Source: an uncultured Verrucomicrobiota bacterium
Lineage (GTDB): Bacteria > Verrucomicrobiota > Kiritimatiellia > RFP12 > UBA3636
Assembly (NCBI GenBank): GCA_946624575.1
Contig: CAMOSH010000009.1
Location: 1-46,392, forward strand
Length of the DNA: 46,392 nt
Reading direction: 5' to 3'
In this document: one piece after another, positions 9,975 to 11,396 of the stretch
Numbering within the stretch: the first letter of the stretch is position 1
Layout: each line of letters begins with the position of its first letter
Program-made: the position numbers and the translations under genes
Notes under the pieces: generated by a model
What the model was told of the DNA's origin: nothing
The model's database searches: none
What the model saw: only the letters and a program-made list of their open reading frames with translations

Positions 9975-11396
9975 CTATTCGGCGGGTTGGAGTTCCTGCG
10001 GTTCGACAACCGTTCCGTAGAGAGTCTGAGGCCGCGCGAGTTCGACTTTCACGCGAACAGACGTCCCAGCGGCAACGCCTGCCGGAGGCTCGAAGACTAC
10101 GATCTTGTTCTGGCCGGTGCGCCCGGACCAGCGCTCCGCGTTGCGCAGCGACGGTCCTTCGACGAGCACCTCCACGACGCGTCCCACCCAGCGCTCGTTA
10201 ATGCGCTGGCCGCGAGCGTCCTGGTCGGCCAGAAGCACGGCGTCGCGCCGCCGCTTTTCCTCGTCCGCGACGTCGTCGGGCAACTGCGCCGACGCGGTTC
10301 CCGGACGCGGCGAATACTTGAAGACGAACGCATTGTCGAAGCCGGCCTCCTCCATGGCGGAGCGCGTAAGTTCGAAGTCCTCGTCAGTTTCGCCGGGATA
10401 GCCGACTATGACGTCGGTCGTGATGGCGATGTCGGGGACGCCCTCGCGCAGGGCGCGCACTGCGGCCATGTAGCGCCCGCGGTCGTAGCCTCGGCGCATC
10501 GCGCGCAGGATTCGGTCCGACCCGCTCTGCATCGGCAGATGAAGGTGCGGGCAGACCTGCGGAATTTCGCGCATGGCCCGCACTAGCTCGGGCGTGACTC
10601 CAAGCGGATGCCCGGACGTGAACCTGATGCGCGTCAGCCCGGGTTCTTCGCGCGCGAGAAATTCCAGAAGACGCGGCAACGGCTCGGTGAATCCCATCGG
10701 GGAAGGAATGTCCTCCGGCCAGGAAAAGCCACCCGCCCTGCCGTAGCGCATCACGCTCTGGCCAAGCAGGCAGACGTCGCGTGCGCCGCGACGCACTTCC
10801 TCGCGCACCTCGGCCAGAATGTCGCGGGGATTGCGGCTTTCCTCGCTCCCGCGCACATGCGGCACGATGCAGTACGAGCATCGCTGATTGCAGCCGTAGA
10901 GAATTGTGACATAGGAACACGGCGGTCTGGAAACGGGATCGCCGACGGCGCACCGCGCCGCCGCGTTTTCACTTCTGGCGGCGGCGCGGTGCGCCGTCGC
11001 GCCCTCAGGATCGGGGCACCACAGCCCGGATTCCCCGGCGAGACAACGGTCAACCAGTTCCGGTATCCGATCGCCGGAGCGCGGCCCGACGGAAAACGAA
11101 AGCCCCGGAACGAGACCGAACACATTCTCGGCAAGTCTGTTGGCCATGCAGCCGGTGAGACCGACCACAAGCCCCGGACGCCGCCCGCTGCGCCTCGCGG
11201 CGCAAAGCAGCCCCAATTTTCCGAGAGCCTTGTCCTCCGCCTTCTCGCGCACGGAGCACGAATTCACAATCACGACGTCGGCGACGTCCTCGTCCGGCGC
11301 GTCGGCGAACCCGGCCGCACGCATGCGGCGCGCGGTCAGGTCCGAATCGCGGACGTTCATCTGGCACCCGTAGGTGTGAATCGAAAACGTCTTCAC
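9975..11396 (-). CDS. miaB: tRNA-2-methylthio-N6-dimethylallyladenosine synthase
   Basis: A radical-SAM methylthiotransferase acting on i6A37 of tRNA. Its 473 residues make it slightly long for the family. The N-terminal UPF0004 domain has its three cluster cysteines in YGCQMN, VNSCSVREKAEDKALG and GLTGCMANR. The radical-SAM cluster is CNQRCSYC (C-x3-C-x2-C) within ILYGCNQRCSYCIVPHVRG. The end is a TRAM RNA-binding domain (GQNKIVVFE to VKVELARPQTLYGTV). VREKAEDKALGKL favours MiaB over MtaB/RimO. Oddity: the linker between the first two domains carries extra Ala/Arg-rich residues encoded by a perfect 22-bp palindrome (10943-10999). The gene starts 27 bases after the giant PilX-like gene. Confidence 0.95.
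   Translation of the reverse strand: MKTFSIHTYGCQMNVRDSDLTARRMRAAGFADAPDEDVADVVIVNSCSVREKAEDKALGKLGLLCAARRSGRRPGLVVGLTGCMANRLAENVFGLVPGLSFSVGPRSGDRIPELVDRCLAGESGLWCPDPEGATAHRAAARSENAAARCAVGDPVSRPPCSYVTILYGCNQRCSYCIVPHVRGSEESRNPRDILAEVREEVRRGARDVCLLGQSVMRYGRAGGFSWPEDIPSPMGFTEPLPRLLEFLAREEPGLTRIRFTSGHPLGVTPELVRAMREIPQVCPHLHLPMQSGSDRILRAMRRGYDRGRYMAAVRALREGVPDIAITTDVIVGYPGETDEDFELTRSAMEEAGFDNAFVFKYSPRPGTASAQLPDDVADEEKRRRDAVLLADQDARGQRINERWVGRVVEVLVEGPSLRNAERWSGRTGQNKIVVFEPPAGVAAGTSVRVKVELARPQTLYGTVVEPQELQPAE
10943..10999. repeat. perfect 22-bp inverted repeat inside miaB
   Basis: The arms 10943-10964 and 10978-10999 are perfect reverse complements over 22 bases with a 13-base AT-richer loop (10965-10977). 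It lies in frame within miaB and encodes the segment from TAHRAAARSEN to AARCAV, in the linker just before the radical-SAM domain. It looks like an inserted REP/RPE-type palindrome. Confidence 0.85.

Follow-up and report, generated by a model that had tools for sequence, protein, structure and literature searches.

We identified a perfect palindrome within the coding sequence of miaB in a 46,392-nt stretch of DNA (the window) from an uncultured Verrucomicrobiota bacterium. In all likelihood it represents the in-frame insertion of a small, nonautonomous, RAYT-associated REP-like repeat, with a second arm generated by fold-back copying. The host open reading frame (Table 1) matched the MiaB family TIGR01574 at 385.9 bits, against a cutoff of 355.3. 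The two 22-nt arms (10943 to 10964 and 10978 to 10999) are complementary at all 22 positions, as the initial annotation had claimed. They enclose a 13-nt loop. The whole spans 57 nt, or 19 codons, and the encoded residues of the 473-amino-acid protein fall in the linker between the UPF0004 (residues 4 to 98) and Radical_SAM (165 to 344) domains, so that the earlier description of about 19 extra residues ahead of the radical-SAM domain agrees with the domain limits and the codon count. In an alignment to the solved MiaB 7mjv, the palindrome-coded stretch lies within the gapped part. Folded as RNA, the coding strand of the palindrome yields -60.8 kcal/mol (z score of -7.1).

Table 1. Features of the miaB palindrome and their positions in the window
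Feature	Position	Strand	Evidence
miaB gene, tRNA ms2i6A methylthiotransferase; GTG start; 473 aa	9975-11396	-	ORF; TIGR01574; UPF0004, Radical_SAM, TRAM
Perfect 22-bp palindrome, 13-nt loop; codes for ATAHRAAARSENAAARCAV, MiaB residues 133-151	10943-10999	.	
Full 36-nt REP-like copy in miaB: head GTTTTCACTTCTG (10965-10977), 10-bp stem, GGT loop, stem	10965-11000	+	Covariance model R1, 64.1 bits
Inverted second copy of the hairpin, headless	10943-10963	-	R1, 28.1 bits, model positions 15-35

The palindrome had also been judged to lie beyond chance. In 446,392 sampled bases of its own genome (the window together with the first 20 kb of 20 contigs), no other perfect inverted repeat has arms longer than 15 nt and a loop of at most 60 nt, and the longest perfect arm in a first-order Markov control was 13 nt, which bears this judgment out. 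A second-order control for a GC-richer sister genome produced one arm of 18 nt, and length alone is therefore not our main argument.

A search of the genome for the arm sequence found that it recurs elsewhere. A 16-mer with up to three mismatches hit 52 places (the reversed pattern hit 28), and its top hits share both a head and a hairpin; searching with the surrounding DNA recovered partial copies on contigs C38, C16 and C48. The dispersed element measures 36 nt and consists of a 13-nt T-rich head, GTTTTCACTTCTG, followed by a 10-nt arm, a 3-nt loop and a second 10-nt arm. In miaB, one full copy stands beside an inverted, headless hairpin, and the two hairpins match exactly across the 22-nt arm (10943 to 10964). 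The miaB copy is part of the covariance model R1, so its match in Table 1 arises by construction and the case for a family depends on the remaining copies. The model finds seven full copies in the genome, each with an E value below 1e-11 and all seven included in the model, together with a weaker candidate at C38:20959 (24 bits).

A gapless alignment of 13 distinct copies from four genomes preserves the same head-arm-loop-arm layout throughout. Of its 130 stem cells, 99.2% are paired, a figure favored by the hairpin filter with which the rows were chosen (a headed copy without a hairpin, at C48:13020, was dropped), and slid versions of the alignment pair at 32 to 71%. Five of the 10 stem pairs have changed on both sides. 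Such two-sided changes occupy 23 of the 130 cells, against a shuffle mean of 9.0, and none of 500 shuffles reached as high a count; stem position 4 retains a G-T pair in 11 of the 13 copies. We rejected an intrinsic terminator, given that the T run comes ahead of the hairpin on the same strand. Rfam returned sub-threshold matches only, mostly to miRNAs, which we took as chance. An element spread broadly across the order was likewise rejected: the exact 16-mer occurs in only 5 of 161 genomes, and in one of these (G066) it lacks the hairpin.

At a limit of E ≤ 1e-4, the element matched at least 8 of the 345 genomes of the class; 20 candidates per genome were scored, and match counts are hence lower bounds. 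Within the genus there are at least seven matches in the window's own genome, four in G001, seven in G003, three in G004 and four in G006. Another family contributes at least 16 in G023 and at least one in G032. One weak match lies in G269. Nine inverted pairs were found in five genomes (G000, G003, G004, G006 and G023), and outward-facing doublets are a common layout of the family.

The element keeps company with RAYT-like genes. One such gene lies next to copies in G003:C173, where they occur on one side only, and another sits between two copy clusters in G023:C21; the two are 76% identical. A third, in G032:C100 (74%), is bordered by a doublet, hairpin-CAGAATTTAAAC...GTTTAAGTTCTGA-hairpin, in which the layout is retained but the head differs. 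The G003:C173 protein possesses an HUH motif and the tyrosine expected of the family, which we take to be represented by MPDHVHMML and YIDYNPLKW, respectively. The best family for all three cognates was the NCBIfam REP-associated tyrosine transposase NF047646, at 52.3, 58.8 and 54.8 bits (below its cutoff of 80), while Y1_Tnp scored 19.8 to 24.9 bits against a cutoff of 23 (23.2 for G003:C173). We count the weakness of both family matches against our explanation.

This cognate clade is present in 3 of the 345 genomes, all three being among the at least eight with element matches. The next RAYT relatives in the 345 genomes are at most 44% identical, apart from two short pieces at 45 to 47%. RAYTs from two families share 74 to 76% identity and lack close relatives in the rest of the class, which on sequence grounds suggests that the clade may have moved by horizontal transfer. 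No RAYT of the cognate clade was found in the assembly of the window's own genome, which instead has five RAYT-like paralogs at 38 to 43% identity; these were rejected as cognates, none of the five having an R1 match above 14 bits nearby. The copies in this genome look orphaned, or else their cognate RAYT lies in the unassembled part (the assembly is 92% complete). The missing RAYT, together with the lack of GTAG, the tag of classical RAYT-linked REPs, and a copy number (seven) that is low for a REP, also counts against our explanation. Separately, a hairpin that differs from the element (L317:1760-1782 and L319:3151-3173) is identical in G000 and G001 and lies beside the RAYT-like genes C82 and C73; it is a candidate second REP family. 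The G000:C82 gene scored 39.0 bits against NF047646 (cutoff of 80).

How might a perfect palindrome have arisen from such an element? Presumably, the element spread through a single-stranded DNA hairpin recognized by a RAYT-type HUH transposase, and one copy would have entered the miaB linker. Its hairpin would then have been copied, inverted, alongside, most likely by fold-back (template-switch) synthesis, to give the perfect 22-bp palindrome, with a total of 57 nt that would have kept the miaB frame. The copy may persist because it sits in a variable linker between two domains, where it would be neutral for MiaB. The palindromic element of the initial annotation thus corresponds to a real dispersed element, but the perfect palindrome is more than that element, since the hairpin is present a second time, identical and inverted.

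One alternative concerns the final step. An ordinary inverted doublet (REPIN) may have inserted in miaB and later lost the head and spacer of its left unit, so that two hairpins were left around a single head, an account that differs from ours in the last step only. Outward-facing doublets are indeed common in the family. However, the hairpins of the seven equal-length inverted pairs share only 11 to 19 of 23 letters, whereas those in miaB are identical over 22, so that a collapsed doublet would need homogenization as well as deletion; we regard it as rather unlikely. The identity over 22 nt and the headless left hairpin favor fold-back copying of the right hairpin over a standard doublet, a preference drawn from one case.

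In the MiaB proteins of relatives, the linker varies in length and sequence, and in 29 other aligned loci the window's insertion was found in none (L031 is cut off before most of the linker). A further set of 80 MiaB loci from named public genomes, which shares some genomes with the 29, had no perfect arm longer than 10 nt at the linker in 76 cases, and the remaining four carry palindromes unrelated to the window's. R1 found no match at miaB in 48 loci (the 29 aligned and 19 of the 80), its best match there being 18 bits and away from miaB. The idea that the stretch is a conserved MiaB segment whose palindromic coding is fortuitous has in its favor that the stretch is translated in frame, but it is refuted by the absence of the segment from the 29 aligned relatives (one truncated there) and by the 76 of 80 other loci that lack such an arm. 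In contrast, the earlier claim of a palindromic element tolerated in frame within miaB is upheld by the other genomic copies, the absence from relatives' MiaB and the linker position. In two close species, imperfect GGTCGCAC/GACCGTGCG repeats, some 90 nt in all, are inserted in frame in the miaB linker (L018 and L032).

Four sister species carry perfect arms in the same linker: 17 nt in G002 (L016), 20 in G007 (L017), 28 in G008 (L032) and 27 in G010 (L014). In each, the right arm consists of the codons preceding the radical-SAM motif and the left arm is its inverse. We rejected the possibility that these are the same REP-like element, as R1 has no match at their miaB; nor did these four genomes yield any match to the element among the 20 candidates scored per genome. 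Between sister species other than the pair G007-G008, the right arms differ at four to six places, and nearly all of these differences have a counterpart in the left arm (4 of 4, 5 of 6, 4 of 4, 6 of 6 and 4 of 5 in the five pairs). G007 and G008 have no right-arm difference and one left-only difference. The mirrored changes could result from template-switch homogenization or from selection on the hairpin. As an observation apart, samples of G007 and G010 (e.g., L207, L208 and L187) contain many palindromes with common GTGGCGGGGT arms, and none of this kind occurs among the long palindromes of the window's own-genome sample.

These sister palindromes, whose right arm consists of conserved codons of the gene itself, lend some credit to a purely local inverted duplication, in which template switching inside miaB would have built the window's palindrome with no mobile element. 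We consider this improbable: the window's head and hairpin recur at unrelated loci of its own genome, and the sister palindromes are unrelated to it in sequence. A broader proposal, which we advance tentatively and at somewhat less than even chances, is that the MiaB linker of this genus is a recurrent site where copying within the molecule builds palindromes and keeps them perfect, from a REP-like insert in the window and from the gene's own codons in the four sisters, with silent changes in the conserved arm becoming amino-acid changes in the other. If this is true, hairpin copying would repeatedly supply a bacterial housekeeping gene with new protein sequence.

It is very improbable that the palindrome is an artifact of metagenome assembly; the genome is fragmented (288 contigs) and the window begins with a poly-G/poly-C tract, but the same element is found in other genomes, where its arms are compensatory, and it leaves reading frames intact. 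The tract itself, long poly-G and then poly-C at the contig start (20 to 168), is probably an assembly artifact.

REPs are named for their extragenic position. Here, a continuous coding frame, with the same best frame on both sides, runs through 22 of 37 tested copies; these 37, of at least 43 matches, were assessed with a codon model trained on the window's own genome, leaving out five of the G023:C21 cluster and the G269 match. The copy at G023:C21:12404 was flagged as continuous too, yet its downstream flank contains a stop. In the window's own genome, six of seven copies pass the codon-model test and all seven lie within open reading frames, the seventh (C8) near the end of a frame whose G006 counterpart is a GH39-type glycoside hydrolase. 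Predicted genes make up 78% of the training sample, and thus there is no excess of copies in genes; the element is merely not kept out. Besides miaB, the hosts include an FAD-binding oxidoreductase (two copies) and a frame joining phosphomannomutase and GNAT, with copies between the domains. The latter is a single predicted 690-amino-acid frame (L357:2938-5010, in G000:C48) with REP-like copies at the junction. Phosphomannomutase and GNAT are separate in relatives, with stops within the match in 7 of 10 other genomes; of the other three, two have a match that runs to the end of a contig, and in the third the match is a 42% paralog. Seven genomes show GNAT as a match of its own, abutting in G001, G004 and G006.

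The initial annotation likened the palindrome to the RPE elements of Rickettsia. The likeness holds for how it works, in that both are palindromic inserts that keep the frame and make a protein longer; by kinship, the element is nearer REP/REPIN repeats, since RAYT-like genes adjoin it in two genomes and a related doublet accompanies a third RAYT of the clade. As REPs, RAYTs and REPINs are defined in PMC2817692 and PMC3116915, the element resembles them in its hairpin with an unpaired head, its paired-arm variation, its inverted doublets and its copies flanking a RAYT-like gene. Unlike them, it has no GT(A/G)G head (GTAG is found in 0 of 13 rows, the head being GTTTTCACTTCTG), has few copies (seven in its own genome) and has most tested copies (22 of 37) in reading frames; REPs, by contrast, are in their great majority extragenic (PMC2817692). 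Intragenic GTAG and CGTC REPs are described in PMC3733652, mostly from Opitutus terrae (Verrucomicrobia) and Rickettsia conorii; they code for extra residues, often as dimers of 20 to 30 amino acids, and their hosts include RNA-modification genes. Our element likewise lies within an ORF and codes for extra residues, but it has neither tag as an unpaired end (CGTC appears in some copies, but only as part of the 3' stem) and its host group is Kiritimatiellae. Unlike the CGTC repeats, which include RPE-4/6 and which PMC3733652 gives as a group without transposase association, it has RAYT neighbors. As the tag test fails for both known superfamilies, we call the element REP-like. Perfect coding inverted repeats and arm homogenization are also on record for the coding palindromes of Nematomorpha mitochondria (PMC6649704) and for yeast genes homogenized by template switch (PMC8604942). 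These come closest to the sister-species miaB palindromes, but they concern other organisms and are not dispersed elements. We found no literature on RAYTs in Kiritimatiellae within a limited collection and set of terms.

In-frame REPs were thus already known, and what is new here is a RAYT-associated family from Kiritimatiellae that has no tag. One genome has seven of its copies, all in reading frames, with one set placed where two genes, separate in relatives, meet. Small hairpin repeats can write new stretches of protein, in this case 19 amino acids in a loose MiaB linker. Single REPs, doublets and perfect palindromes form a natural series for asking how RAYT elements enter coding DNA and how proteins absorb them, and the same series addresses whether hairpin copying makes new protein segments.
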